A stretch of DNA of 64,000 bases from Rhizodiscina lignyota (taxonomy: Eukaryota; Ascomycota; Dothideomycetes; Aulographales; Rhizodiscinaceae). The position numbers and the translations under genes were made by a program. The stretch covers positions 682,001-746,000 of the forward strand of contig ML978129.1 of NCBI GenBank assembly GCA_010015805.1, in the 5' to 3' direction. The stretch's first letter is position 1. Each line of letters opens with the position of its first letter. Shown here piece by piece: positions 3,579 to 41,517 of this stretch. A model generated the notes under the pieces. That model did not search any database and was not told the DNA's origin. It saw only the letters and a program-made list of their open reading frames with translations.

Positions 3579-5416
3579 CTAGCTATGCGTCGGCATGTTT
3601 ACTCTCGCCTTCGTGTTCACCGCGTCCTCGCTCCTCCACAGACTGGTCACCGTCTTAGTTTGTGTGTAGAAAGCAATACCAGGCTTTCCATAGAACGTGT
3701 TTGCGCCGCCACCCGCAATGCTCTTCTTGTTGCCCGTGAAGCTGAACATGGGCAAGGGTACCGGGATCGGGACGTTGACACCAACCTGGCCGGCCTCGAT
3801 CTCATGCTGGAAGCGGCCGGCGGTTGCGCCGCTACGCGTGAAGATGGCGGTGCCGTTCCCGTACTCGTTGGCGTTGATGAGGTCGATCGCCTCGTCAATA
3901 GTGTCAACGTTCAGACACACAAGCACGGGGCCAAAGATCTCTTCAGTGTAGCAGCGCATGTGTGGTTTGACGTTGGCGATGATGGTGGGTCCGATCTTCC
4001 GGCGCATTAGCATTTTCCACTCTTCCAATTCCTGACTCGGGGATTCTAGGAGGGAAAAAGCTCACCCAGTTGCCATTAGGATATTTCTCTGGCTTCTTGC
4101 CCCGTCCATCCATAATGATTGTCGCGCCCTCTTGCTCTGCGCTGGCAATGATATCCTCAATCCTTTGCTTCGCCTGAGGGCTGATCACAGGGCCCAGATC
4201 CGCACCCTCCTCAAAACCACCGTTCATGCTGATCTCCTTCGCGCGCTCGCCAATCTCCGGCACCCAGTCCTTCGTCTCGCCCACCATGACAAGCGTGCTC
4301 AGCGCCATGCATCGCTGTCCTGCGGCACCAAATGCGGCACCCGCAATCGCGTTCAACGCGTGGTTCTTGTTGCAGTCCGGCAGCACTGCAGCGTGGTTCT
4401 TCGCGCCCAGGTTCGCCTGTACTCTCTTACCGTTCGCGGAACCTCTGGTGTAGATGTACTCTCCAGCACGGTTGCTGCCGACGAAGCTGATGGCCTTGAT
4501 GCGTGGCTCGTCGATGATGAAATCGACTGTCTTGGCGGCACCGTGAACGACGTTGACGACACCTGGTGGGAAACCGGCCTTAACGGCGAGCTCAGCGAGG
4601 ATCATGGCTGCACCGGGGTCGCGCTCAGAGGGCTTGATGACGAGTGTATTGCCGGTAATAGTAGCGATAGGAATGCACCAGAGCGGAATCATGGCAGGGA
4701 AGTCTAAGAAACGTCCACATTAGCATCTCGAATGTAGAAGTCATACGATGGGACCAGGAAAACCTACTAAATGGGCAAATAGCAGCCACAACGCCCAATG
4801 GCTCCTTATACGTCCTCGTTTCCATATCCTTCGAAACCTCCAAGACCTCGCCAGTCATTTGAGTCGTGATACCGCATGCCGTCTCCGCGACCTGCAGACC
4901 TCTGAGGACATCACCCCTCGCATCCGGGAACGTCTTGCCTTGCTCAATCGTGATGCTCGCAGCCAGCCTGTCCCAGTTCTCTCGGATCAATGCGACATAC
5001 TTGAACATTATCTGCTGCCTATGCAGCAAGCTCGTCTCTCTCCAGCTCTTAAAAGCCTTCTGCGCGCTGTCGACGGCTGCCACCAGCTCGGCATCTGTGC
5101 TCTGCGGCACCCGCGTAACGAGGTTGTTCGTGGCTGGGTCGTGCAGATCGATCCATTGTGAGGTCTGCGAAGGGACGAACTCGTTGTCGAGGAAATTGTG
5201 CGTCTCCCACGTCGAAGGAGCTTCGTGGGTTGTGTGGTGACCCTGCGGAGCTACGGAAGCCGAGGCAGCGGGGGCGAGGTGCTTTGTCGTTGCGTGAAGA
5301 CGCCGTACTGCGACCTGGCTGGATGGCATTCTCGAGGCAAGGCAGACGGCGGACCTGAGACGGGGAGGTCTAGAGAGCGCTGTGAAGCTTCGAATGGCGG
5401 CGCGACGAGCGGCCAT
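3579..5416 (-). CDS. methylmalonate-semialdehyde dehydrogenase, mitochondrial
   Basis: CoA-acylating aldehyde dehydrogenase of valine, thymine and inositol breakdown, converting methylmalonate semialdehyde to propionyl-CoA in the mitochondrial matrix. Exons 4768-5416, 4066-4703 and 3579-3995 with introns of 64 and 70 bp give 567 residues. The first ~45 residues are Arg/Ala/Ser-rich ([20 protein letters not shown]), a likely presequence. Family landmarks: [18 protein letters not shown] at ~158, [12 protein letters not shown] at ~214 (joined across intron 1), [11 protein letters not shown] at ~291, and [12 protein letters not shown] with the catalytic Cys near 348. At the position where most aldehyde dehydrogenases have a glutamate general base the protein reads [10 protein letters not shown], as is usual for this CoA-dependent class. 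Intron 2 ends at CGGAAG after a TGCTAATG branch site, giving NGNWIGPTI. Confidence 0.95.
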
Positions 5417-6165
5417 TGTATGAAGTTAAAGAGCGGAGATAGATGCAAGAGACGAAAACGAGGAAAGGACAGCTGCCAATCGATTCAGGCTATTCCTAGC
5501 AGGGGCACCTACAGCTATTTGAGATGCTCAGAGAGAGTCAGCGTGCAAAGAAATTTAATGGCGAGCTAACGATATGTCGCCGGCATAGCTTGAGGGGAAG
5601 CTCTTCGGCTAGCTCTGGGCCGCTGCGGAGAATGAGATCCATCGCACATCGCGCCGAATGGGCGGCGAGCCATGTCCGAATTTGGGAGCATTCTGAGTGC
5701 TGAGAAACTTTCGGTAGCCATGATGGGTCCAATTGACGGCAATAACCGCATAGCCGCGGAGCAAAGGAACTGCTGCAAGCTGTATCTTGGAGGTTGCTGT
5801 GTAAAGTACAGTCGGGGCCAGATTTATCGCCGAAGACGATCTTCACTGTGGTCTCAAAAGCGCTCTGTAATCAGCCAATTAGACGACAGTAGCGAGGAGA
5901 TGCGAGAGATGTGTGAAGTATCAGCTCTTTTCACATTGCTGCTAGGATACAACGTTCAATGTGGTCACATTAGAAAGACCTTTCGCAAATTGCTAATGCT
6001 CAAAAAAGGAAATCTGACTCCGTGGTCGCCTCAAATCAGCAAGGACGCTTTTGATCAGCTCCGCTGCAAACACCTTATCATCCCCAGATGCCTCTCGTTT
6101 TATGTCTGTGCGCCTAGTAGGCTCTTTCACTGTTCACCGTTTCCAACATAGCCCAAGGATTCCTC
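5417..6165. other. intergenic, no confident gene
   Basis: 749 bp holding the MMSDH 5' region and the calnexin 3' region (both genes are on the minus strand). A 159-codon ATG frame on the plus strand at 5672-6151 has no recognisable feature and is not called as a gene. Confidence 0.5.
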
Positions 6166-8131
6166 TTACGAAGCTTGGCTCCTGGTGGTCCTCTTGTTAA
6201 CCTCATCCTTTGCCTTGTCTGCCCCAGACGCGACAGCCTCAGCCGCCTTGTCCTTAGCATCCACCGCCGCAGCCTTAGCCTTGTCAGCGGCACCCTTGAC
6301 CTGCTCCTTCGAAGGCGCGGCACCACTGCCAAGAACGCCAGCGATGAGAGCGACCAGGAGGATAACAAGACCAGCAGCACCGCCAGCAATTTCGGGAACT
6401 TCCTTGACTGCAGTGACGGGGTCCTTCTGGGCAAGCGTGATAAAGAGATCAAACTTCTCCTTGACGTATTTGACGGGGTCATCCATGAACTTGAGGTCAG
6501 AATCCGAGGTCGGCTTGTCATCGAGCTTGGGCTTGGTGGCTTCCTCCTCAGCCTTCTCAACATCCTTCTTGATGTCAAAGGTCTCAGTCTTGAGCTTCTC
6601 AGCGTCCTCAACAGAGTGGCCAATATAGATATTGTCGAAGAGGATGTCCTTTTGCATGGTCCAGATCTCAAAACCAATCTATTGATGCTGTCAGTCGCTT
6701 GATGCAGAAATCAAAAGTGAGTTGAACTTACAGCACCCATAGGCTCAAAGTTGGACGGAGTCTTGTCCTCGAAGTACTTGGGGTTGGCAATCTTCCTTGG
6801 TGCCCACACACCCTTGTACGCCGGGTTCTCAATCAATGGTGGATTCCACTTGCCCTTGTAATCTGGGTTGCGCTTCATAGGCTTCTCCCACGGGCCACAG
6901 CCAGAGACGTCGTCGCACTTGGGGTTGGGAACCTGAGGAGCGATCCAGTCACCATCCTCCTCATCATCCCAGTCCTCAGGCTTCTCAGCCTCTGGATCAG
7001 GCACCATGGTGGGCTCATCCTCGAGCCAGTCCTCGGGCTTCTCAGCCTCGTCGTCGACAATTTCGAATGGAGCGTCCTCGTCCCAGTCTTCCGGCTTCTT
7101 AGCCTCAGGGTCTGGAATCTGGGACTCGTCGACCCAGTCATCGGGCTTCTTGTCATCAGCATCGTCAATCTCCTTCTCGGGATTGACGGAGGGAGAGAAG
7201 TCTTCGAGGAGAGAGCCAGTCTTCTTAGATTCGCCGTCAATCTTGATCTCGAAGGACTGGTCGGGACGGACGATGAGGGTGTAAAGGGAGGTCGTCTTGG
7301 TGATCTGAGCGAGAGGTGGGCTCTTCAAGTGCTTCTCCTCGTATTCGCCAGTCTTGGGGTTCTTGTGACGGAAGATGAAGTGGACCTAGGAATGTCAGAC
7401 GTGAAACCCAGCGCTTGCGCATTTGCATGAAGTACCTTGTTAGTGGAACCGCACTTATCGGGGCCAAACATGATGATATAAGGAGAAGCATTGGAGAATT
7501 CCTCGTTGGCGAGCTTCTTGTTGTCTTGGAGGAGCTTAAGATACGCTCCACCGCACTCCAGACCATCTGTGTGGCAACGTTAGCGACACAGATCAATTGG
7601 TGGCGCAAAGTGACTTACCCTGAAGCTTGACCTCGTATTGAACAACAAGAGTATCCTTCTTGTTAGAGATGGCCTTGGGGAACTTCGCAGAGATGGCATG
7701 ATGGGCGGCCTTGTCCTTCACAACAAGACCCTTGTCGCCCTCAATGCCCTTCAATACGGTGGGCTCCTCGACAGACCAAGTGCCAACGTATGCCCACTCC
7801 TCCTCCGAGGACTGGTCATTCTCCTTCTTCGCATGTGAAGGCTTCCACCGCGTCTCCCAGTCATCTGTGAACTGTTCGAGGAAAGGCGCTTTGAGGGTAG
7901 TGGGCTATGATGAGTGGTTGTGTTAGCTAGGGATACCTGTCCTGTTTGAGGCTTTAGAAGTGCGCAAGCAGAGTGGCTTACAGTGAAAGTGGGCCTCTCA
8001 ACAGCTGAAGAGGTTGCGGACTCTGCTGCTGAAGAGGCGGATGATGCAGCATCCTTAACATCCTCGACGACATCTGCAGCGCAGACGACGGTAGCTCCAA
8101 GCAAAGCGGAGGCAAGCGCTGCGATACGCAT
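6166..8131 (-). CDS. calnexin, ER lectin chaperone
   Basis: Membrane-bound chaperone that holds monoglucosylated glycoproteins during folding in the ER. Exons 7982-8131, 7619-7904, 7436-7566, 6732-7385 and 6166-6678, with introns of 77, 52, 50 and 53 bp, give 577 residues. It starts with a signal peptide ([20 protein letters not shown]), followed by an Ala/Ser-rich stretch. The lectin domain contains [17 protein letters not shown] and [10 protein letters not shown]. The P-domain has tandem KPEDW-type arm repeats ([38 protein letters not shown]), then the second repeat set [17 protein letters not shown] and [15 protein letters not shown]. One membrane segment ([15 protein letters not shown]) lies about 70 residues from the end, followed by an Ala/Lys-rich cytosolic tail. 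Five exons with conserved phase make this one of the most secure models here. Confidence 0.96.
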
Positions 8132-9831: not shown

Positions 9832-12800
9832 ATGGAGGACCTTGTCGTTATCGCTCTGGCTTGTCTTCCTATTCCAGTGATCATCATACTCTTCGCTATC
9901 TTTGCCCCCTATGTGGCTAAGATGATGTTCTTCATCGCCAATCACGCTCAAGATGTTGAAGATATCGGGCACAAGTCGAATAAGCTCATTGAGCGCCTCT
10001 ACAACTACGCTATCGGTCGACCCAACGATATTCAGGCCTCCCTTCCCCGCAATGGCTATCAGCACATCGCGCTGATCTTCAGCAGCGTGGTGTTAGCGTT
10101 GGTCTTCGTGTTTCGGCAGTCTTGGTGTTTAGCTACGAAGCTACACCAATCTCTTAGCACTCCTTATACGAATGTCCACAAGACTAGTGAGGAGGTTGCG
10201 CCTATCCCTTGTGCAAATAATTGTATGGCGACAGCTATTCCGTTCGGCAAGTGTCTTAATCAAGGTTTCAGAAACGGTTTTCTAATCTCACAATAGCTAT
10301 TCGAATCCGTAATGGCTCTGAGCTCTTGGTGAACATCATCACTACAAAGGGCACAATCATCATCATCCCCTTAGTGCCAGTATTCCTCTACGAGCCGATT
10401 GCTCCGCATGTGTATCATGAAGTTCAAGGTAAGGCAGCTATTGCGCATTGATAATACTATATGATGCTAACGAACTCAAAACAGTTGTGCTGATGGCAGC
10501 CATCGAGCTTCGATGTCGTCCATCCAAGCCTCTAGCCCCTTCCAAGGCTGTCATACTTCAGGAGGAGGATATCATTTCTGAGCACTTTGAACACGATGAC
10601 CACCCGCTTCCTGGTACTCACAAGAATGATGACGGCGTTCACCATATTGTCGACATGAAGGCCGTCTCCGATGCTGAGTCTCGTACTCCTACCCTCGATG
10701 AAACTCGCAGCACTAGCTCAGATGAAGTTCGCTCTCGCTCTAGTTCAGCGAGCTCGTCAACCTCTACTGATGAATCGAAGTCCTCTAGATATAGCACGCC
10801 GACAACTCCTACCTCACCGAAATCTGTGCCGCTCGAGAATGTTGACCCTGCTGTGGAAGTCGAAGGTGATGATGGCTGGACCTGGGCGAAGGACGAGTCC
10901 GAGAACAAGTTTCTTTGTGAGATTTTGCAGGAGATGGTCTCGCAGGGATGCTTCTCACATCCTCATGCCGTTCGTCAATCACCGGATGTTGCGCTGCCGA
11001 AAGATGATACCCCATTGGATGTCGACATTGAGATCGATGATGAATTACCAACCTCTTTCTCCGACGACGATGACTATACTTCGCCGCTGCCTGCACATGC
11101 CTCCGATTCGCACCACTGGACCTATGTCCTCCCCTTGGAGGTTAAGTCTACCGAGAACACAACATCCGCTACATCTGACGCTACACCAAGCTCGAATGCA
11201 GACTTTGATGTTCCATCAGCGGTTACGATCCCGTTTCCACTCCGTGTGCCAACATCTTCACCACAGGAGACCTCACCCAACACTTTGTCGCCTCTACCTC
11301 TAGAGGAAGGAATTCCAGTGGTAGAAAACAACTTCATCAGCGATGACAATATCAACAAGAGTGTTCTTCTCGCTGACTTTGCGTCCGATCACTCTTCTGC
11401 CGAGCCTACTGAGGCTGCGCCTTTTCCCCAGCCGGTCGATGTCGAGGTTTCTCTGGAAGAGGTCATTGAGGCATATCGCAAAGAGCGCTATAATGCAATA
11501 TACTCAGAGTTGCGGAAGAAGAAGCTTGCTGAGAAGAAGGCTAAAAAGCTTGGCAGCAAGAAGAAGCAGCACAAGAAGAAGCATGCTCGCGAGGTGGATG
11601 TTGAATTGGAGCAGGGCGAGATCAGAACAATTTCTAGGGAAGCTGAAGATGCGGCTGAGAAATTGGTTCGCGAGAAATTCACTGGTGAGCTTGGCGGCTC
11701 GGATGTCGATGAGCAGGTCGATGAGCAGGTCAACGAGCAGATCAACGAGCAGGCGATCGAGCAGACCGACGAGCAGGCCGATATGCTGACTGATGAGCAA
11801 TGCGAAGGGACATTGTCGGACTTCACGCCTCCTGCGGCCCTTATGGAGGAGGACGAAATTGTCTCGGAGTTTGACGACGACATTTATGACGAGGATCTCG
11901 ATGAGTCCGCTTTCCAGGAATTCGACGAAATCTCTGATATCCCTACTCGGGCCGGCATCATTGACGATGCGATCGCTCAAAACTACTTCTCCACTCCAAC
12001 TGTCACAGATGCTGTTTACGATACGGTCGCGGACAATGAAGGAGGTGCTGGTGTGAACGAGAACGTTGGTACCTCATCCGATACCCCGTGCGATGTTGCA
12101 GCAGAAGTATCCTTCGACGACACTACTAGCATTGGCTCTCACAAAGACGAGGCTTCTGGTTCCCCTTGCAATGCTTTGGTGATTTACCAGGACATCGACG
12201 AGATGATTAAAATTGCCTTAGCGAAGTCCCAAGTTCCCATGTCGATAATGGACGACTCAGATGATGAACCAGACTTTATGTACGATTATACTGACATAAA
12301 GGATTGTCCTCTCGGAAAAGGATGTCCACACGAAGACGACTATCCTCACATAAACGGCTGTCCACACGAAGACAAATGTCCTCACGGAGACGATTGTCCT
12401 CACGTAGATGACTATCCTCACAAGATCTGCTTCAAGGCAGCTCAGCGCTATAATCCGAACCACGTTAAGCTCCTCCTTGAGGAGGCGCTTAGCGGGAAAT
12501 CCGTGCTTGGTATGCATTATGTATGGAGAATAGTGCGTTACCTCTCCCTGGATCCAACCATGAACGAGCAAGGCAAAGCACGAGAGGCGAACTTTACGAA
12601 CCTTGTTGATCTCGAAGATGAGGACAACTTGGACCAAGAAGATCTCAGCGAGGAGGATTTGATAGCGGCTGAAAACACAGAGAAAGAGTATCAGGAAATC
12701 TTTGAAGCCCTTCGGAAGTCGATGGTGACCGATGTCACTGATGCAAACAAGCCAGGATTCGATGAGGTCACCGCGATGAGGTACTTTGACGGTCTCGTAT

Positions 12801-14629
12801 TGCTGCACAAGCTCAACGGTCGACACGACAAGGCTCGCAAGTTACAGGCTGTCTTAGACAGATTGAAAAGTCCTGGATTTCGCAGCAAGGCGTGGTTCGC
12901 AGCCAAGACAATATTCTACCGCCTCACGAAACAGGATAACCTGTATTTTGCCTTTTTGGATTTCCTGAAGCGTGTCCGTCTAGCGGAAGACTATCGATTG
13001 GAATACGATACACCGTACAACCTTGACTGGGTTGTGATCACTGGAGAAGGAGACGGTAGAGACTACGGTACTTTCTTTCAGGCGTGGTACTCCTCCCTGC
13101 ACGTCGATGCATGCGTTGCTGAGGCTGGGGAGAATGAGGACAAAGGGGTCACTCAAACGGACAACATGGGTTGGGGAGCATTGAACATCTCTAAAGACGA
13201 CAACATAACGCTCAAGCGCACTATTGGAAAAAATACGCTAATCCTTCAAGGACTGAAGCATGATCACACTCTCATGCAAGAGGTTATGAAGCAAAAAGAG
13301 GATGTTAAATCAGAAGCATTCCAAGCTTTCGGGTCCTGGCTCACAAACCGGTTTCGGAAAATCTCGCATGCAACTTCCCATCGCTTTGCTAAACATTGTT
13401 CGGCGGCGAAGGTTCGCGAGGAGGTTCGCAAGACTCTTCCTGGCTACGGCACTTTTAAGTGCCCACCTACCGATAACTACTTCGAGTGGGAAGACTACAT
13501 TATGGCCAAGTTCAGCGAGCTTTCAGAGCAAGAGCAAGGGAATATGAACGACTTGAGCGATGCTCTTTGGGATGAGTCCAACATCTTCGAGGAATGGCAG
13601 ATCAAGGAAGCTCTTCAATACGAAAACCAGATTGCCATGGACTTCTTTACCATTGTCAGGGCCCACCCGAAGGACTTCGACATGCATCTTCAAGTACTTG
13701 AAGACAATCATGATCTCCGTCGCAAATACTACAAACAACAGAAGAAGATTCTCTCCGATTTCGAGGAGAGTTTGCGGAAAGCGTACGACCAGGCCATGAA
13801 TTTTGCTCTTCGCCGAGATAGGGGCCGGTGGCCTCCCGCACAGCCGTATCGCGTTGAATTCGACAAGCTGAAAAACTTACAAAAGAAGCAGAATGAGCAG
13901 CTGGCCACGCTGAGGAAAATTCAAAACACAGAGTATTTCTCGCATCTGAAATCAATTAGTGCGGAAGAGGAGCGACGTCGATCCCTGAGATGCCCCGAGA
14001 CGCGAATCAATCTGTGGCGTTCACAGTACACCGACAAGTTCCTGGCGGAAGATAGTAAGAAGTTCAATAAGTTTGTTCTTCAACAATTTGACTATCTGAA
14101 CACTTGGATCGAGAAGGCGATTCAGCAGTGTCCGCCAACGAATCCACCTCCTGCCTCTCGTGGCTTCAATTTCGCCTCGCCCGGGCAAAATAGCACGCTC
14201 TTCAACTTCTCTGGTTCGGCTACGCAGTCTTCATCACCAGCACCATTTGCTGGTCTGGGCACCACTCCTCAGCCATTTGCATTTACTGGCAGTGCCAACA
14301 ACGAAATGCTGCGCCAGGCTCCCAACGCTCCATCACAAAACGGTGCATTCAACTTTGGTAGCACTCCCCAATCTGCGTCCACCTCCGCCGACTGGCGCCC
14401 AAAGGCGACGCCGAAGTCTAGAGCGACGCCGGCCACTTCGCAATCGGGCACCCCATCAGATTCCAACAACCCCTTTGCTGGACCATCTACTACCTCATTC
14501 AATTTCAGCAACACTGAGCAGACATTCCCATTTGCTTCGACTAACAACAATAACGACCAGGGATCTCGGTCTGGCCCGACTCCGAGCGGCAAGAGCCGTT
14601 TCGCTGATATGTGGGCTGAGAAATCTTGA
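9832..14629 (+). CDS. large unknown protein: N-terminal membrane segments, hexapeptide CPH repeats, FG-like tail
   Basis: Not recognised as a known family. Exons 9832-10246, 10297-10428 and 10485-14629 keep phase and give 1,563 residues. The first intron begins GC (GCAAGT donor) and the second is GT..AG. Residues 4-34 and ~78-94 are strongly hydrophobic, with a weaker stretch at ~158-170 (TIIIIPLVPVFLY), suggesting membrane attachment. Residues ~230-790 are acidic and Ser/Asp/Glu-rich, with a Lys-rich patch (EKKAKKLGSKKKQHKKKH) near 373 and six x-[DNI]-E-Q units near 590-613. Seven hexapeptides of form x-[C/Y]-P-[H/L]-x-x follow at ~789-830. Residues ~830-1390 look folded and helical, with coiled-coil-like stretches. 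The last ~155 residues carry FNF, FAF, FNFG, PFAG and FPF motifs in a Ser/Thr/Asn-rich context, like nucleoporin FG regions, ending SRFADMWAEKS. Confident as a gene; role unknown. Confidence 0.8.
11705..11776 (+). repeat. 12-bp coding tandem repeat (x-D/N/I-E-Q units)
   Basis: Six 12-bp units of pattern GTCGATGAGCAG with small changes, inside the large unknown gene. The GAGCAG half is constant and the other half varies, giving V-D-E-Q, V-N-E-Q, I-N-E-Q, A-I-E-Q and T-D-E-Q. Likely a recent replication-slippage expansion that could differ in length between strains. Confidence 0.85.
12302..12427 (+). repeat. 18-bp coding tandem repeat (hexapeptide CPH units)
   Basis: Seven 18-bp units in frame inside the large unknown gene. 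They encode, in order, DCPLGK, GCPHED, DYPHIN, GCPHED, KCPHGD, DCPHVD and DYPHKI. Cys (replaced by Tyr in two units), Pro and His keep their places while the outer residues vary, so selection on the motif is plausible. The Cys/His spacing would suit metal binding, but that is inference. Confidence 0.85.
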
Positions 14630-15064: not shown

Positions 15065-17825
15065 TTAGCTTTGGGTAGCTGGGTCGACCATGCAGTAGTC
15101 GAGATTGTGGACGCTGGTGTCCGGGTTGCCGGCCCAAGTTCTGCACGCGATATCAGCATTCGGCACATCTTCATGTCATCAAATTGAGTAACTTACGGGA
15201 AAGAGTGAGCATTTCCACTGCCACCAAAGACTGCAAACGTCAAGATGAACACCATGACCTGGGTACCGCCGTCCAAAGCCGCCGAGAGGATATAGTTGTA
15301 GTCGACGAACCACTGCGGGCGGAACTTGCGCAGCCAGAATTGCGCCATGAATCCAACGATGAAGTAGCTCAGAATCGAAGCATTGATACCGACGAACAAC
15401 CATCCCATGTACCAAAGGATAATCGACAAGTTGATGTACGAGAACACGCGCCAGCCAGTGTAGCGGTATGCGATCCAGAAGGGGAACGGCACGGCGAAAC
15501 CGACTATATAGCTGATTGTAACCCATTGGTACTTCGAGCCAATGGAAAACATGTCCTTGGCGATGGACCATGCAATGGCGAGAGTATTGAACTGCTGGAC
15601 GTTCTGGCCGGACCAGATGTTCGAACCCTCAATGGACGTCAGGATCGGCGCTTGGTTGTCGACAATGGTCAACATCATGCTGTAGTTCAGCAGAGCGCCG
15701 ACAATGCAGCCAATCACTTGCACGGTGAAGGTGCAGCGTGGCGAAAGATGGACGTATTGCGCGAGCTTGAGATCACGTGCAAGCACTTGACCCATTTGCA
15801 GAGCATTGAAGGTGTAGCAAGTAAAGTACAAGTCTGACGCTCATTAGCTTACGGTCACTGATGCCCTGGTATGCGAGAAACTTACTAGCAAGCGGACGTC
15901 CCGGAAACATGTATCCCGCAATCATCTGGCAGAATGGTTGGATATTGAACTGGAATCCGGTAATACCGAACTGCGCGCCGAAGAACAACATGAATATGAT
16001 GGAGAAGAGCAGCGCGAGGATAAAGCCCCACCATGGCAAGGTCGATTTCATCACGTAAAGACAGATAATGCCTATGACCCACGAGACCAGTAGGATAGCA
16101 CCCCACCACCAGAGCGGCACCTCGGGGTAGAGGTTTCGGAGCATAAGCTTGTAGTGTGGATCCAAAGCCGGGTCGTTCATCTTGCGCTCCAGACGCTCCT
16201 CGGGGGTCTCCTGGTTCTTCCAGAAAACGTACCAGGAGGGATTGAAGAACGTCTTCTTCAGAGCAGATGGAGCGGCCCAGGCCCAGCCGACTTTGATGTC
16301 ATCCCAATTCTACCAAATTTTGGTTAGACTCCCGAGTTGTATCAACCCATGATTACGAAAAGTCACTTACCCATAAAAGCATGTGCGTGAAGGTCGCGGT
16401 GAAGCCCATGGCTGAAGTGATAAGGTAGCCAAGATAAGTAGCTGTAAGGTTCGGTATGCCCTTCGCATGCATCGCATCAAAGTCAACCTCGAAGTTGCTG
16501 TCCAGAATATCGCTTTGGTTGTAGACAGAGTAGAAGGTGCCATTGGATGAGTCGTCAAACAAGAACTGGGACAGGAATGGGAATTTCCGTGCGTCCCACG
16601 TGTTGCGGTAGAAGAGGGCCATGAAGAGCATGATACATCCCAGATAGCCGATTAAGGTGTTCGTCAGAGAATACAGAGGGTACCACATGGGAGATCCAAG
16701 AGAGGCAATGTACTGCCAATCGAAGCAGACGGAGACTGTAATCTCTCAGTATACTCGGCGAATCCAAGAGGCAGAGAACTTACGGAAACCAAGACCCTCG
16801 TTACCACTGGCACCGCCGAACAGGTTCGTGAAAACCAAGCTGTCTTGGTGTGCAAGACAGAAGATTGACACACCTTCGAGCACAGGGAAAATGTACTGTT
16901 ATCTCGTAGTCAGCTCCTCAATCATGGATCATGTCTCGCCTAATGACTGACCTCAGGAACAACTTCCCAGAAGAACAAGACAAAGAATACAATATAGAAG
17001 AGTCGAAGCCGTTTCTTCGTCGCTGCCTTATCCTTGTGCAGAGACTCAAGCAGTGAAGCCACGGGCAAGTTGTAAGGCCAAAGCATCTTCGTTGGGTAGA
17101 CGAGCACGTCACGGAGCAGACCTGCGATGCCGTAGCCGATGAGCTGTGAGGAGAGGGTGATGAAGACCGCCGCAGCACGACTTGGAAATCCTCCATAGAA
17201 GAGCTGCTGTGCAGCCAATGCTTCCGTAGAAAGCGCGGATTGTGCGGCGGCGGAAGCCATGAGAGCAATGGCGGCGTGCTCCTTGCCATTGAAGGGACCT
17301 GGGTTGAGGAATCGGCCGATTGCGCCTTTTCGAGGAATAGTATATGCCATAAATTCGCCGAGAATATACGCAAGCACTGTCAAGAACACAACGGAGACGT
17401 AGATGACTTGAGGCTTGAAGTAGAAGATTTCCTGCAACACAGAGCCGAAGACTGCGAAACCAATGCCTAGTATATCGCGTGGTTAGCGGGTATTCGAGCG
17501 CATCTTGATAGTCCGTCGTGGATCTCTGGACGTATCAAGAATCATTTTACGCACCGAGGAAGAACATTCGGAATGTCCATGGATTTACAGTGGGATCGTC
17601 CTCTACGGTCAGCACCTGTGTGGTGATGTCTTCGACTGTGTCGGCATGGATATCATGCTTTTCCATATCTTCATAGTGAGGAACCGGATCTGAGGAGACG
17701 CCCATCTCTTTGACGTCGTCGGCGCCATTGGACGCCCCATCCCCAGAGGTCTTCTTCACATCCATATTGCTCAACGGCACCGAGTCTGTGTCGACACGTG
17801 AGAAACCAGGTCTCTTGGAGGCCAT
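15065..17825 (-). CDS. OPT-family oligopeptide transporter
   Basis: Proton-coupled transporter of the OPT family (small peptides, glutathione or metal chelates; the substrate cannot be read from sequence), in the plasma or vacuolar membrane. Seven exons: 17555-17825, 16952-17466, 16784-16895, 16371-16735, 15886-16309, 15197-15833 and 15065-15140. Six introns of 48-88 bp all fit GT..AG and keep phase, giving 799 residues. The hydrophilic N-terminus (~85 residues, Asp/Ser-rich) is followed by many membrane segments. Family motifs: RFLNPGPFNGKEH at ~143, SSQLIGYGIAGLLRD, FDWQYIASLGSPMWYP, and GQVLARDLKLAQYVHLSPR. The C-terminus reads TWAGNPDTSVHNLDYCMVDP. The last exon is only 76 bp, but its frame and the usual OPT ending support it. 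Confidence 0.95.
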
Positions 17826-23379: not shown

Positions 23380-24757
23380 ATGGATACTCAGTTCCCCAGC
23401 GGATGGCCACCTTCGCATCTTAGCATGTCGCGACTACGGTTTCCCCCAAGCACATTAAATGATTTTGAGTCCAAAATGACTTGGCCACATGCACAAGATG
23501 GAGGACCGTATTCATTTACCGCGCCGGGGGACGACGACCTATTAATATACTTTTACGGCGGTGCCAATCCGCTATGGCAAGCGGTTCACAGGACACCCAG
23601 CCCAGATCGTGAGCACGCTCGAAGGCTTCTAGAGGGAGGAGTCGATCTGCATGAACCCTGGAATACTGAAAAATGGATGGAAGAACATGTTTATTCGAAG
23701 CAATGGGGGGTGTAGACCACCAGAAGGCGATCTGATTGACCCAAAGCGGTGCACGCAAGCGCTCTTCAGCCCAGTATTGAATGGCTCCCCGGATCTTGTG
23801 GAGCTATTAGTGAACTTCGGTGCACGCATTGAAGCTCATAATCGAAAGGGCATGACAGCTCTACACGAAGCCGTCCGCACGCATAAGGCAAATATTGTTC
23901 GGATTTTGATCGACAATGGTGCCGATATAAACGGAACTGTTTCGACCGGCGGTTACGGCCATGAGTACCTTTCCGGCTTTACTGCTTTGCACCTTGCTGT
24001 GCTGGAGGGCCAAGGCGATATCGTAAGGATTCTACTTGATGCCGGTGTTGATGTACACATTTCCACATCATACAATTGGACCGCATTCGATCTAGCCCTC
24101 GTCGAACGACAAACAATTATTGCCAACATTTTGGAAGAGTATGCTGGAGATCTCAAACAAGAACTCAATTATCGGGCTCATTGCTTCAGTAAGACCTTCC
24201 AAAACCCGGAGCAAGACGAAGACGTAAAGCTCTCGCGGTTTGTGCTTGATCACGGATTCCAATACTGGGATGGAAAATACAGGACCTTTTATGTGCGCCT
24301 CATTTTGGAAATCCAAGGAAATCGCTCCGACGTCGAGAGGAACTCCAACAAATCATGTATGCAACTCGGGAATGAGATCCAAGATCAATTGAAAAAGCTT
24401 GCCCAACTTTCAAACACCGTAGAATGGGATCGACATCTCTGTTCGAAATGTGAAGCATTCCAGCAGCAAGAAGTATCAACCATGTATCAGCCATTCGAGC
24501 ATTACCCGAGCGAACGCGCACTCGTAGAGTCTAGCTCGAATGGCTGCGTCCTTTGTACAATGTTAGCGGAGTCACTTCATCTGAGTCAAACTGCTTTGCA
24601 ACCCGATCGAGACATGTCTCAGACGGATTTACAGAAAAGGTACGAAGATATGGATAATACAGTTTTGGATGTAGCACCTGTGGTGCTACGAATGGCAAAA
24701 CAGGGCTGGAGTGACCTTGCCGTGGTTGCTCGCTGTGGCGAAAGAGTGGTAGTCTAG
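23380..24757 (+). CDS. ankyrin-repeat N-terminal part of a HET-domain protein
   Basis: Upstream half of what is probably one ankyrin/HET gene together with the next entry. The first frame starts at ATG 23380 and reaches an ankyrin-like unit (LWQAVHRT..EHARRLLEGGVDLHE) ending near 23.7 kb. The ankyrin array then continues in another frame: LFSPVLNGSPDLVELLVNFG, MTALHEAVRTHKANIVRIL, and FTALHLAVLEGQGDIVRIL followed by LDAGVDVHI. After the repeats come a C-x2-C pair (HLCSKCEAF) and SNGCVLCTMLAES, often seen just before HET domains. No intron of normal size explains the frame change, which coincides with a run of six G. A stop also lies shortly before the expected intron at the end of this part. 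So the gene may be decayed, or the assembly may carry an error. Coordinates outline the coding-like region. Confidence 0.6.
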
Positions 24758-24944
24758 AGCTTTTACCCGTTGGAGGTAAGCACTCTTCTTACCCAGTTCA
24801 TCTTCCTCTACAAAGCTCGCGCTGTGTGAGGAGGTTGGCCTATTATATTTCACCTTCGATCAAGCTCACACTGATCCAGCAATGTGGCTTCATTATTTCA
24901 TTATTGGAGCAAGAGAAATCTCAAAACGGCAGGCTAACTTCAAG

Positions 24945-26599
24945 AAGCTCCCGTTGCGAAGGCCATTGCGAAGACTGAACCGTACGATCGACAGAGCTCT
25001 GGATCTGAGCGTAGCATTGCAATTGCAGCAGCTTGGCTCGAAACGTGCACCACAAGCCATAAGACCTGCGGACTTAACGCCATGTCTGAACTACCGTCCC
25101 GCGTGATAGATGTTGGAAGCGAGGGATCACACCCTTTTCTATGTATCTCAGCACAAGACAAGGCGCGGTACACCGCACTCTCGTACTGTTGGGGGACAAA
25201 GCACAATTTCGTCACCACATCGTCTACACTTGATGATATGATGAGCGGCGTTCCTCTTCACCGATTTCCAAAAACAATGCGGGATGCCATCATCATCACA
25301 CGAGGCTTGGGCATCCGTTATCTGTGGATAGACGCTCTCTGCATAATACAAGATTCCGAAGAAGATTTCGCTAAAGAAGCAGCGGAGATGGGTGATATTT
25401 ATTCCCATGCAACAGTTACAATTGCTGCTACGGACTCGAAAAGCTGCCAGGATGGCATTTTTGAGGAACGGAATTGGAGAACTGGAGCATTGCTGCACCT
25501 TGATTTGAGAATCCCTTCAGGTTCCGGTACGATCAGTCCTCATGAAGGAACCTCAAGCATCAAAAGGATCTTAGCTCGTCGTGATATGCCATGGTCTCAC
25601 GAATCGCATCAAATTCTTGATACGCGTGGCTGGACGATGCAAGAGAAGCTCCTCTCCAGGCGCTACTTGAGCTGCAGTACTCTCGAACTCCACTGGAGTT
25701 GTCTCGAGGCCACTTCCTCCGAAACAAGGGCATATCTGCTTCCTCGGTCCTTCGATACAGACCGTTATCTTCACAGCGATGAAATGCAAAATATCCAAAA
25801 CATCCAAAACATGCTGGCAATACAATGCAACGAACGTGATGATGGCGATGCTTTTAGTGTTTGGTTGGGTTTGGTAGCCGAATACTCCAAACGAACGTTT
25901 TCAGAGTCGACAGACAAGATAATCGCACTTGCCGGCTTTCAAGACCAGTTGAGCGTGCTTTTCAATGATGTCCCCATCGCGGGCATGTGGAAAAATCGAT
26001 TTTTCTTGCGGAGCCTGCTGTGGACTCCTTGTCCATACTCGAACTTGTTTGACTCCGGAAACACCGCTGACGACAGCGACGTAATGGGAAATAGGTTCCA
26101 CGGTCCGTCGTGGAGCTGGACGTCTGCGGACGGCGAGATCACTTACGAGAATTTTAGCTCTGCCGAATTCTCATTTCTCATGGAGGTTCTGTCATGGGAT
26201 CTTAAGATCTCACCGGGACAGCGTTCTATTGAAGGAAGTATCACCATTCGAGGCAAGATCGTATTCTCAAAAGCTGCAGACCAATTCTGGTGGGGAATGG
26301 ACGACGACGAAGTCGACCCACTAATGCAATATTGCTCACACTATTACCGCGAGAAGTGCCGCTTTTTGAAGGAACCGGGGAAAAAGTGGTGTCTGTTGCT
26401 GGCTGAACGGCCTTTCGAACCACCGTCGAAAGTAGGGCGTCCACGCTGGCCAAATGGACGCAAGCCCGCCATGGTTTGCATGGTACTCGAGCCAGTCAAT
26501 CTCCAACAGCTGGAGTTCCGTCGAGCATGCATTGTGGAATTGGCGAAGCCGAAGAGAATGTTGCGACGATCCTTTACTAAAGTCATCAAGCTATTGTGA
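24945..26599 (+). CDS. HET (heterokaryon incompatibility) domain protein, C-terminal part
   Basis: HET domains act in fungal non-self recognition and trigger cell death when hyphae of unlike genotype fuse; many are the effector part of NLR-like proteins (family knowledge). The longest ATG frame starts at 25082, but coding resemblance runs further upstream (AIAAAWLETCTTSHKTCG) to a likely acceptor site near 24944, so this is a 3' exon. Landmarks in order: LPSRVIDVG, YTALSYCWG, FPKTMRDAIIITRGLGIRYL followed by WIDALCIIQDSEEDF, IYSHATVTIAA, then RGWTMQEKLLSRRYL. These are all three classical HET blocks. The remainder (FHGPSWSWTSADGEI and beyond) matches the usual region after HET. The HET part itself is uninterrupted to the TGA at 26597-26599. 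Its link to the ankyrin part is inferred from order and spacing. Confidence 0.82.
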
Positions 26600-38389: not shown

Positions 38390-38994
38390 AAAGATGATTA
38401 TTAGAGTCGGCCTCGTTAGGATCCTATCGATGTTATAGGATCGTGTATCACTGTACCAGCATCGACATTTGGCTCATTTAGATGGACTTGATCATGGTAC
38501 ATGTCGTGGGACCGTGTTTGCATTGATTGCGTATATCATTTCAAGCGTCTAGAGCATTTCGACATGGAGTCACGGGTGGAATTGCATAGCGAGATACCCA
38601 TCTGCAGAGTTAAACATGCAATTGAATTCCAATTTGATATATGTAAGATCCATAGGACGTCCTATCACTGATGAACCGGACAAACACACCAGCCATTCCC
38701 GTGTTGCGTTTCTAATGGGCTTTGCGTCATTTGGCCCCAGCGCCATGTGCCCTGCATGGATCCTTTTTCGCAAACGCGACCTCCGACTGCATCCTTGTCA
38801 ACCTTCAAGTATCGTCCTCTCAGTTATCTGGGGAAACCAGCGCAACGAATTGGATTGGGAGCGCTCATATCCATATTCTACATCACTGACACATTGATGC
38901 TCCTCCACCCCAGACGCGCTCTTTGGACGCGTTGCGCGTGAAGCGCTTAACCTCACCACCGAGCTTCTCACGAACAGCACATCTTTTCAACGCA
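38390..38994. other. intergenic upstream of Med1, no gene seen
   Basis: Holds the 3' end of the Cys-rich gene and the Med1 promoter. An open frame runs in phase into Med1 from 38923, but with TTG instead of ATG. Confidence 0.5.
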
Positions 38995-41517
38995 ATGGCG
39001 ACACCAACGCCCTCAGGCACACACGGCTCCAAGCACCCTCTGACCGCGCACTCAACCGCGACGCCTCCCTCCGTCTCGCACCTCCCAAACTTCTCCTCCC
39101 CAGCGCCGCGCTCCGTCCCCTCGCCCGCAACACATCGCAACCAAGCTGGCAAATCGCCCTTCAACACCTCCAGCCATGCGCCAAACAGTGTCGGCAGCAC
39201 TGCAACAGCCGGCGCACAGAACCACCCGACTGGCAGCTCGGGCAAGGGCTCGCAGGGCGTCGCAGGAGGTCTGCTTGGAAGCTCACCGGCAGGCATGAAC
39301 ATCGATTCACCTGCGGCGCTAGCCATGGGCCTGGGACAGATGGGCGGTGTGGAGATGGGACTGGGAATGAGCATGAGTGGGATCAGCCAGATGGGATTTG
39401 GAAACCTGGGTATGGGAATGGAGATTGGAGGCAGCAGAGGGGTGCAAGGCCGCGCGATGGACGACGAGGAGAGGAGAAAGAGACTGGAGCAGGTTATTGC
39501 GATGGTAGGCAGTAGACCGGGACGTGTGAGTGAAGAGTCGTTGGAGAGATTGGGGAGACGGCTTGGTTTAGATACTCAATGCGACCCACCACTTGGGCAG
39601 GGCAAGGGCGCGAATTGGAATGGGGTGAGGCAGTTGGCGATCGCCGGACAGACGTTCGTGGTCGATATCAGCTCACGGAGCGATAGCGTGGAGAACGTTT
39701 CGATTACGTGGGGAGCGGATCCGACGAAAGTCGATGAGTCGGCAAGTAAGTTGCTGATGGAAAGCATCACGCCTCCTCCAGGTGGTTCGAGCATCACATA
39801 TACGCTCGATAAATTCGAGAAAAATCTAGAACGTTTGGCGCGCCTGGATAAGCTGGAAGGAGCATCGTTCAATTGCTACGAGGCGATAACTGGGGTTTAC
39901 GAGAGCCTGAAGAGACTATATGAGCATGAGAAGAAGACTGCCTTAGCACTCATCGGCGAAGGTGCAAACAGGAGGGAAGAGCGCGCCGAGAGAGAGACAA
40001 TGTGCAAGAAGAGTGGCATACCACGGCTGAATGCCCACGGAAGAATTGGAGTATCGCTTGAATATTGGATGGATGGCCGCTTCCAGTTCAAATCGCCGTC
40101 CACAGACCAGGGTAATACCATGGACGTAGACAAACCTAGTTCATCGTCAGAACATGAAGATGATGGGGATGGGCAAGTCTACTCGCTTGTCATCGATTGC
40201 GAGTCTCATCCCGCCACACTCTACACTCCTATACGTACGTCTACAGCATGGATCTCCGAGGCTGTAGAGAAGCTCTCCGACGACCCTCACGGCCTTTTCG
40301 GACAGCAGGCCGAAATTGACTGGCAGGAGCCACCGTCATCGTATCTAAATAATCCGCACGAAGATGCTCCGCAGCAGCCAGATCCAATGAACCTCCAAGA
40401 CCTAGGTATGGGGAAACTGCCGAACATCAGATTCGTGGCCAGATTGGACCCGCCACTGCCTATGCCAGTGCAGATGTGGAACAGCATCTTGCATGCAGTA
40501 GGCGTGCAGCCGGATCTCCAGAGTCTGCGACATCATTCCTATGACGGGTTGGTGCTCAGAGCGGAAAGCTTGGAAGAACTGGCTGAAGCGCGCGATATTG
40601 CATCTCAGATGGAACGACAGGTTTACAGCAAGCGCGACATACTAGTTCCGGCGACGAATAGCAAAGAAGAATTCGAACGAATCCATTCAAGCACTCTAAT
40701 CGCTAAAGCCGAGTTTGGCAAAGTGCTCGAGGAGATCCCCTTCAGCCATCCTAGGGACATTGTCAACATTCTTGGTGTGTTGCGACAATACGCGTTCCTC
40801 AACTCCCTGTTGAAGCGGTCATTCGCAGCATCTAATCCGTCACTCACTCACGGCATGACCAACGGCACCAGCAATGGCGATCTCAACGGCGATACGGACA
40901 AGAAGCTTCCATCCCTCCCTGTGGACGTCCTCCTCACCACCGCGACCGCAACGTCCACATCTCCGCAACTCGTCATCACATTCCCTCGACCGATCCCACC
41001 TGCACCAACTCCAGCACCACGCTCACCAGTCCCGTCTGAGTCAAAAACTCTTCCTAGCAATACAAAACGCCTCGTGCCATACAGCTCTAGTACAGCGGCT
41101 TCTGACGCAGACGGAGATATCACACTCGACGACATCCTCGACGCTGAGGGTGCATCTGCCGATCCTTCGTTCGGGGCCAAAGACGTGGAAGCGGAAGCGA
41201 CAGTGCTAAGTCTCACAATCGAAATTTCAGCGCATAATGCCGATGTGAGCATCGTGGAGCAGAATGCCGTGCCGCCACCCACATCCGCTGTTACCACTAA
41301 TGAGAAAAGTTCCGGCTCCGATGGAGCAGAGAAGCAGGAAGGAACAGAAACAGGAGTGAAACAAGAAGGCGAGGATGTCATGGAAGGTATTTCGAAAGAC
41401 ATGGCGAACCAGCAGGAGGAGACGAAGAGGCTGGAGAAGGTACAGCGGTTCGCAAAGGCGTTAGAAGTATGTGGGGATATCGACGTGTGGGTGGAGTGGA
41501 TCGCGAAGCAATCGTAG
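38995..41517 (+). CDS. Mediator complex subunit 1 (Med1)
   Basis: Subunit of the Mediator middle module, which links activators to RNA polymerase II. Single exon, 840 residues; start ATG at 38995 (the frame upstream has only TTG). The first ~170 residues are Ser/Thr/Pro/Gly/Met-rich and disordered (TPTPSGTHGSKHPLT, GMGLGMSMSGISQMG-like runs). The Med1 domain follows, from ~165 to ~620: RRKRLEQVIAMVGSRPGRVS, LERLGRRLGLD, IAGQTFVVDISSRSD, ITYTLDKFEKNLERLARLD, and GRIGVSLEYWMDGRFQF. Later come VARLDPPLPMPVQMWNSI and PFSHPRDIVNILGVLRQYAF. The C-terminus is again disordered and ends KALEVCGDIDVWVEWIAK. The 840-residue length and the order of blocks fit fungal Med1. No introns are needed. Confidence 0.92.
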   Translation: MATPTPSGTHGSKHPLTAHSTATPPSVSHLPNFSSPAPRSVPSPATHRNQAGKSPFNTSSHAPNSVGSTATAGAQNHPTGSSGKGSQGVAGGLLGSSPAGMNIDSPAALAMGLGQMGGVEMGLGMSMSGISQMGFGNLGMGMEIGGSRGVQGRAMDDEERRKRLEQVIAMVGSRPGRVSEESLERLGRRLGLDTQCDPPLGQGKGANWNGVRQLAIAGQTFVVDISSRSDSVENVSITWGADPTKVDESASKLLMESITPPPGGSSITYTLDKFEKNLERLARLDKLEGASFNCYEAITGVYESLKRLYEHEKKTALALIGEGANRREERAERETMCKKSGIPRLNAHGRIGVSLEYWMDGRFQFKSPSTDQGNTMDVDKPSSSSEHEDDGDGQVYSLVIDCESHPATLYTPIRTSTAWISEAVEKLSDDPHGLFGQQAEIDWQEPPSSYLNNPHEDAPQQPDPMNLQDLGMGKLPNIRFVARLDPPLPMPVQMWNSILHAVGVQPDLQSLRHHSYDGLVLRAESLEELAEARDIASQMERQVYSKRDILVPATNSKEEFERIHSSTLIAKAEFGKVLEEIPFSHPRDIVNILGVLRQYAFLNSLLKRSFAASNPSLTHGMTNGTSNGDLNGDTDKKLPSLPVDVLLTTATATSTSPQLVITFPRPIPPAPTPAPRSPVPSESKTLPSNTKRLVPYSSSTAASDADGDITLDDILDAEGASADPSFGAKDVEAEATVLSLTIEISAHNADVSIVEQNAVPPPTSAVTTNEKSSGSDGAEKQEGTETGVKQEGEDVMEGISKDMANQQEETKRLEKVQRFAKALEVCGDIDVWVEWIAKQS

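Follow-up and report, generated by a model that had tools for sequence, protein, structure and literature searches.

Nuclear pore-membrane proteins vary among lineages, and a survey made in 2010 placed Pom121 in vertebrates only and Pom34 and Pom152 in fungi only (PMC2951903; this and the other papers are cited here for the passages that bear on the comparison). In the yeast protein Nup60, two N-terminal helical regions help to anchor the protein at the nuclear envelope, and the FxF repeats at its C-terminus, four in number, are said to bind transport receptors (PMC9071577); the amphipathic helices of Nup1 and Nup60 become vital once Pom34 has been deleted (PMC8700311). The GFDFI motif of Nup1 binds the Sac3 complex of TREX2, and Kap95 binds an FxFG piece but the FDFI piece only very weakly (PMC4041426), a case which by analogy indicates that glycine-less FxF motifs can dock partners selectively. 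In Tetrahymena, TtPom121 and TtPom82, each with one transmembrane segment and FG repeats, came to notice through their expression profile together with a search for transmembrane segments, and were shown at pores by green fluorescent protein tagging and immuno-electron microscopy (PMC5450191). The authors of that work regard TtPom121 as a likely ortholog of human POM121, with a nuclear localisation signal suggested in its N-terminal region (PMC5450191), so it serves as a precedent for such a plan and for its discovery in this manner, and not as a proof of convergence. The subject of the present work is a gene of the fungus Rhizodiscina lignyota (Dothideomycetes, Aulographales) whose product, P0001 (deposited as "hypothetical protein NA57DRAFT_78172", 1,555 amino acids), resembles these systems in the order of its parts. 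The gene lies in a stretch of 64,000 nucleotides (G000:C9:682001-746000, here called the window) of an assembly of 33.4 Mb in 29 contigs.

The best explanation found for P0001 is that of a membrane tether, either restricted to its lineage or evolving very fast, with an FxF/PFA docking tail, and about as much can be said for this explanation as against it. Two or three N-terminal hydrophobic segments would span and anchor the protein in a membrane, most likely one of the endoplasmic reticulum/nuclear-envelope system; an acidic linker of ~650 residues and a helical core would supply a long arm, facing the cytosol or the nucleoplasm, and an assembly part; and a disordered tail would present partner proteins with several short hydrophobic motifs on which to dock. 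The first-pass annotation of this DNA had offered two possibilities, a lineage-specific pore-membrane protein or an unrelated membrane protein whose tail is disordered and sticky, and it is the second that the gene model, the hydrophobic segments and the F-motif tail without FG excess fit best.

The gene is real and encodes a protein of 1,555 residues. The interval marked in the first-pass annotation, 9832..14629, coincides exactly with one gene model, from the start ATG at 9832 (context CCACCATGG) to the stop codon at 14627-14629, and the product spliced from the three exons listed in Table 1 is identical to P0001 at every letter. Core and tail lie in a single unbroken frame of 1,398 codons from stop to stop (10433-14629), and it is only the joining of the hydrophobic exons to exon 3 that depends on the splice model.

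The tail is set apart by its motifs. FNF, FAF, FNFG, PFAG and FPF, all of which had been described as repeated in the C-terminal part, were counted within its 163 residues: FNF and PFA occur four times each (two of the latter as PFAG), and FAF, FPF and FNFG once each, in a composition that includes 3.7% R, 2.5% K and 8.0% G. The expected counts were obtained from 20,000 shuffles of the tail, in which nine motifs, picked after inspection of the tail, were counted. FxF occurs six times against a shuffle mean of 1.28 (p 0.0004), FNF four times against 0.14 (a count reached in 0/20,000 shuffles), PFA four times against 0.21 (p 5e-5) and PFxG twice against 0.14 (p 0.008), whereas FG, with one occurrence against 1.2 expected (p 0.73), is at chance level. 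There is no excess of FxFG (1, p 0.10), PF (4, p 0.09), NPF (1, p 0.175) or GLFG (0). The genome background was a sample of 264 kb (the window and 20 stretches of 10 kb), in which 127 frames from stop to stop reach a length of 200 amino acids (all six frames being read, so that not all of the 127 are genes); only one of these, the frame of P0001, has more than three FxF in any 163 amino acids, and the runner-up is a hydrophobic frame with three. The four copies of FNF stand at a distance from one another and mix synonymous codons, so they do not represent a fresh tandem duplication of DNA. The first motif of the tail, RGFNFA, has a glycine before its first phenylalanine, as does GFDFI in Nup1, but this is no more than a lead.

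FG nucleoporins are marked by many FG dipeptides, as FxFG or GLFG, within a disordered domain rich in Gly, Asn, Gln, Ser and Thr. The tail is not a true FG-nucleoporin repeat, and the label "FG-nucleoporin-like" given to it at first has to be corrected to FxF/PFA. This is because FG is at chance level, because the glycine content of 8% compares with 20-35% in the FG-nucleoporin-type frames of the same genome, and because Pfam Nucleoporin_FG (PF13634) has no match at the locus or in the tail alone at E <= 1, against 10 matches at 4 other places in the genome. The four FG-nucleoporin-type frames hold 8-17 FG per 163 amino acids against the single FG of the tail: three frames of GLFG type (L008, L009 and L012) reach 12, 17 and 10 FG over the densest 163 amino acids, with 21-35% glycine and no FxF there, and the F-densest 163 amino acids of a frame with Nsp1_C contain 8 FG, one FxF and 20% glycine.

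The weakest of the four Nucleoporin_FG places (E 0.41, below the cut-off) is a frame of 241 amino acids with 9 FG on another contig (3265-3990, minus strand, in G000:C14:60000-68000, L020), directly downstream of a dynamin-family frame (4039-6213, minus strand; Dynamin_N 3.3e-31, Dynamin_M 8.8e-23). A 60-bp intron with weak signals, one of 17 possible joins, could connect the two in frame, and that both belong to a single gene, for a dynamin whose tail is FG-like, is a guess from the sequence. Since an FG-rich frame stands beside a dynamin frame, an F-rich tail is no proof of a nucleoporin.

At the search sensitivity used, P0001 is an orphan, a term which here means that no relative was found and not that none exists. 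The protein searches covered 5.8 billion proteins and reached only relatives that share exact 5-residue words. P0001 alone was found when residues 640-1380 of the long frame were used as the query (the best 7,992 candidates by shared words being scored), and again with residues 1-200 of P0001 (354 candidates), while the core alone returned nothing at E <= 10 (7,993 candidates scored, with P0001 outside the length limits of that query). Pfam gave no convincing family for P0001 up to E 10, a range in which the HMMER filters drop most matches above 0.1, and the POM121 family was not among the matches. The statement of the first-pass annotation that the protein has no recognised family is thus in agreement with the Pfam, PDB sequence, own-genome and protein searches, none of which gave a convincing match. 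The candidates set aside were OppC_N (0.23), Exonuc_VII_L (0.89) and Nab2p_Zf1 (3.5) for P0001, all far below the Pfam cut-offs; TrbL_3 for the tail (E 0.83); and PDB sequence matches, the best of them to uL22-type ribosomal proteins (E 0.09-0.29), which were taken as chance. No convincing paralogue was found in the organism's own genome, where the only further candidate for a tail was a rejected stretch on contig C8 (E 0.16, 24% identity, one internal stop), and a phage tblastn search and a scan of viral contigs, both long shots, found no relative.

The hydrophobic segments that had been noticed in the first ~170 residues correspond to the only three Kyte-Doolittle peaks listed at a cut-off of at least 1.4 over 19 residues. 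The long acidic low-complexity middle is likewise present, as a linker with 22.4% D+E (and 5.1% K, 2.6% R, 3.3% H and 3.6% G), within which a lysine-rich patch resembles a classical nuclear localisation signal and may act as one. The core is probably mostly helical, to judge from single-sequence models: residues 1165-1392 are modelled as long helices with a mean predicted local distance difference test score (pLDDT) of 54.5, and the whole core is modelled at a mean pLDDT of 36.4, both of which are too weak for comparison. The helical central part proposed earlier is in this way favoured by the modelled helices, but at a low confidence that leaves it unconfirmed. Pfam, PDB sequence and Foldseek comparisons gave no family for the core, known non-nuclear families included; the 168 Foldseek matches of residues 1165-1392 to the PDB at E <= 10, of which none reached E <= 0.001, were set aside as generic helix matches (best, Vipp1 filaments, 0.45).

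Table 1. Features of the P0001 gene and its product (positions in the window).
Feature	Position	Strand	Basis
Exon 1 (start codon and first two hydrophobic segments; residues 1-130 + one base)	9832..10222	+	spliced product = P0001
Hydrophobic segment 1, residues 5-23	9844..9900	+	Kyte-Doolittle 3.08
Hydrophobic segment 2, residues 76-94	10057..10113	+	Kyte-Doolittle 2.08
Intron 1, 74 bp, GTATGG...TAG, CTAAT upstream of acceptor	10223..10296	+	sole fit to P0001, five in-frame choices compared
Exon 2 (hydrophobic segment 3)	10297..10428	+	spliced product = P0001
Hydrophobic segment 3 (weakest of the three; spanning uncertain), residues 144-162	10335..10391	+	Kyte-Doolittle 1.84
Intron 2, 56 bp, GTAAGG, branch-like GCTAACG, ACAG; links hydrophobic exons to long exon, frame kept	10429..10484	+	splice signals
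Exon 3 (linker, core, tail; unbroken frame to stop)	10485..14629	+	frame 10433-14629
Acidic, Ser-rich low-complexity linker, residues 176-820	10487..12421	+	D 12.2%, E 10.2%, S 10.2%
Lysine-rich patch, residues 516-540, 14 K/R in 25	11507..11581	+	composition
Short in-frame xxEQ repeat in linker, period 12 bp, 6.5 copies	11705..11782	+	tandem-repeat listing
Cys/His hexapeptide array, residues 782-824, CPLGKG CPHEDD YPHING CPHEDK CPHGDD CPHVDD YPHKIC	12305..12433	+	tandem repeats, period 18/36 bp
Core without family match, probably mostly helical, residues 825-1392	12434..14137	+	single-sequence models and null family searches
FxF/PFA tail, residues 1393-1555 (163 aa; 15 F, 0 Y, 0 H; 6 FxF, 4 PFA, 1 FG)	14138..14626	+	motif count, composition

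Two repeats in the table are side observations. The xxEQ repeat has perhaps grown recently by slippage. The Cys/His array, an imperfect tandem repeat of CPHxDD-type units of which two have Y for C, is possibly metal-binding, and an own-genome search for a second copy matched this place only. The neighbours of the gene in the window are ordinary: aldehyde dehydrogenase at 3946-4719 (-), calreticulin at 6714-7385 (-), an OPT transporter at 15196-15840 (-) and the Mediator subunit Med1 at 38890-41514 (+). Elsewhere in the window, an ankyrin-repeat frame at 23633-24754 (+) adjoins a heterokaryon-incompatibility (HET) domain frame at 24938-26596 (+).

Several points weigh against the membrane tether. 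No relative was found by which selection on the tail or the core could be gauged. The topology is ambiguous, since the charge of the loops is indecisive and ten N-glycosylation sequons, spread along the chain, leave a lumenal arm possible. The third hydrophobic segment is borderline, and two spanning segments alone would put the N-terminus and the C-terminus on the same side. The link between the hydrophobic exons and the long exon, finally, is that of a splice model.

A specific form of the tether explanation, and the leading one as regards the site, is that P0001 belongs to the nuclear envelope or the nuclear pore and arrived at its plan independently. The segments would lie in the pore membrane or the inner nuclear membrane, the lysine-rich patch would serve import, and the FxF tail would dock transport receptors or TREX2, in the manner of Nup60/Nup1 or of Tetrahymena Pom121. 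This form is an outside possibility that deserves to be taken seriously. The order of anchor, linker, basic patch, helical part and F-motif tail resembles that described for TtPom121 (PMC5450191) and Nup60 (PMC9071577), the FxF excess of the tail is consistent with it, and the lysine-rich patch within a long linker recalls Heh1/Heh2, for which a nuclear localisation signal and a disordered linker are the proposed route to the inner nuclear membrane and in which the signal folds as that of Pom121 does (PMC4695851). It is opposed by the chance level of FG, the lack of a Nucleoporin_FG match at the locus, the low glycine of the tail and the FG-rich frame beside dynamin, as well as by the behaviour of Kap95, which took the FxFG piece of Nup1 and hardly the FDFI piece (PMC4041426).

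The genome's complement of pore-membrane proteins also stands against a nuclear-envelope site. Ndc1 (PF09531, 3.1e-131, contig C4, with three stops inside the match, as from introns), Pom34 (PF08058, 9.5e-20, contig C10) and the transmembrane domain of Pom152 (PF24097, 2.0e-31, contig C5) are all present above cut-off. For these families, as for PF13634 and PF05064, 14 control genomes were silent, and the own-genome matches stand on their scores alone; NUP50/Nup2 (PF08911) had no match in the genome, but the controls were equally silent, so this result is uninformative. Since Ndc1, Pom34 and the Pom152 transmembrane domain are present, there is no vacant pore-membrane post, although there may be an extra component. 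P0001 matched none of PF08058, PF24097 and PF09531, and no kinship of its central part with Pom34, Pom152, Ndc1 or Pom121, with which a comparison had been proposed, appeared in Pfam. The lineage-specific pore-membrane protein of the first-pass annotation accordingly loses its FG likeness and its empty place, and is left with a weaker claim, the analogy to Nup60 and Tetrahymena Pom121. On that reading, P0001 would be a protein of the pore membrane or the inner nuclear membrane that arose in the Rhizodiscina lineage, with a multi-pass anchor, an acidic arm bearing an import signal and a Nup60-like FxF docking surface beside Ndc1, Pom34 and Pom152, following the Tetrahymena Pom121 plan with an origin of its own; this is unlikely, and P0001 is a candidate for a new pore component and not yet evidence of one.

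A place at the septal pore or at some other membrane site of the hypha, where P0001 would be a disordered, lineage-specific protein that accumulates by way of its disordered regions as the SPA/SPP proteins of filamentous ascomycetes do, is improbable. Among SPP proteins, 13 of 23 have high predicted disorder and nine of the ten that are specific to Pezizomycotina have no known domain (PMC10023807), and the orphan, disordered character of P0001 matches this description. Compared with other disordered sets, the disorder of SPP/SPA proteins is reported to favour Arg and His and to avoid Lys and Gly (PMC10023807). As raw percentages, the low Gly (3.6%) and the His (3.3%) of the linker could agree with this composition, but its Lys (5.1%) exceeds its Arg (2.6%), His is absent from the tail while Gly makes up 8% of it, and no sequence relative was found.

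The possibility that two genes have been run together, the hydrophobic exons forming a small membrane protein and exon 3 a soluble protein that begins at Met178, is quite improbable. Exon 3 does have a Met a few codons past the acceptor, and eight in-frame choices could be listed for intron 1, of which the five compared with P0001 include the sole fit. Both introns, however, carry ordinary fungal signals, the second of them keeping the frame; the start context at 9832 is strong; the deposited model joins the exons; and the guanine-cytosine content per codon position is alike across all three. NPF/PF-type motifs link to EH domains, and the four PFA and one NPF of the tail could mark an endocytic or trafficking adaptor with EH-domain partners, but this is very improbable, the single NPF being within the range of the shuffles (p 0.175) and FNF not being known as an EH motif.

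If P0001 is a fungal protein of the Pom121 plan that works beside Ndc1, Pom34 and Pom152, this would suggest that a finished pore can still take on new membrane anchors; if it works off the pore, it is a caution that F-rich disordered tails may occur elsewhere too.

Among the known systems, the fungal SPA/SPP septal-pore proteins are like P0001 in that some are lineage-specific, without known domain and with long disorder (PMC10023807), and unlike it in the Lys/Arg balance of their disordered parts; no sequence match to them was found. Vertebrate POM121 has an N-terminal membrane anchor, a region like a nuclear localisation signal and a C-terminus with F motifs, an order which the hydrophobic segments, the lysine-rich patch and the tail of P0001 resemble (in part general background, in part from PMC5450191), but the 2010 survey has it in vertebrates only (PMC2951903), whereas P0001 has no Pfam match and a tail without FG excess. 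TtPom121 and TtPom82 have one transmembrane segment and FG repeats and were seen at pores, in contrast to P0001, whose FG is at chance; they resemble it in that a transmembrane part, putative in P0001, and F-repeats occupy opposite ends of the chain, and TtPom82 has a coiled coil in its centre (PMC5450191). Nup60 and Nup1, for which the protein searches, reaching sharers of exact words, found no kinship with P0001, have amphipathic helices instead of two or three hydrophobic segments, and Nup60 is only 539 amino acids long, but they combine an N-terminus that contacts the membrane with FxF motifs further along the chain (PMC9071577, PMC8700311, PMC4041426), a pairing which the hydrophobic N-terminal peaks and the six FxF of P0001 resemble.

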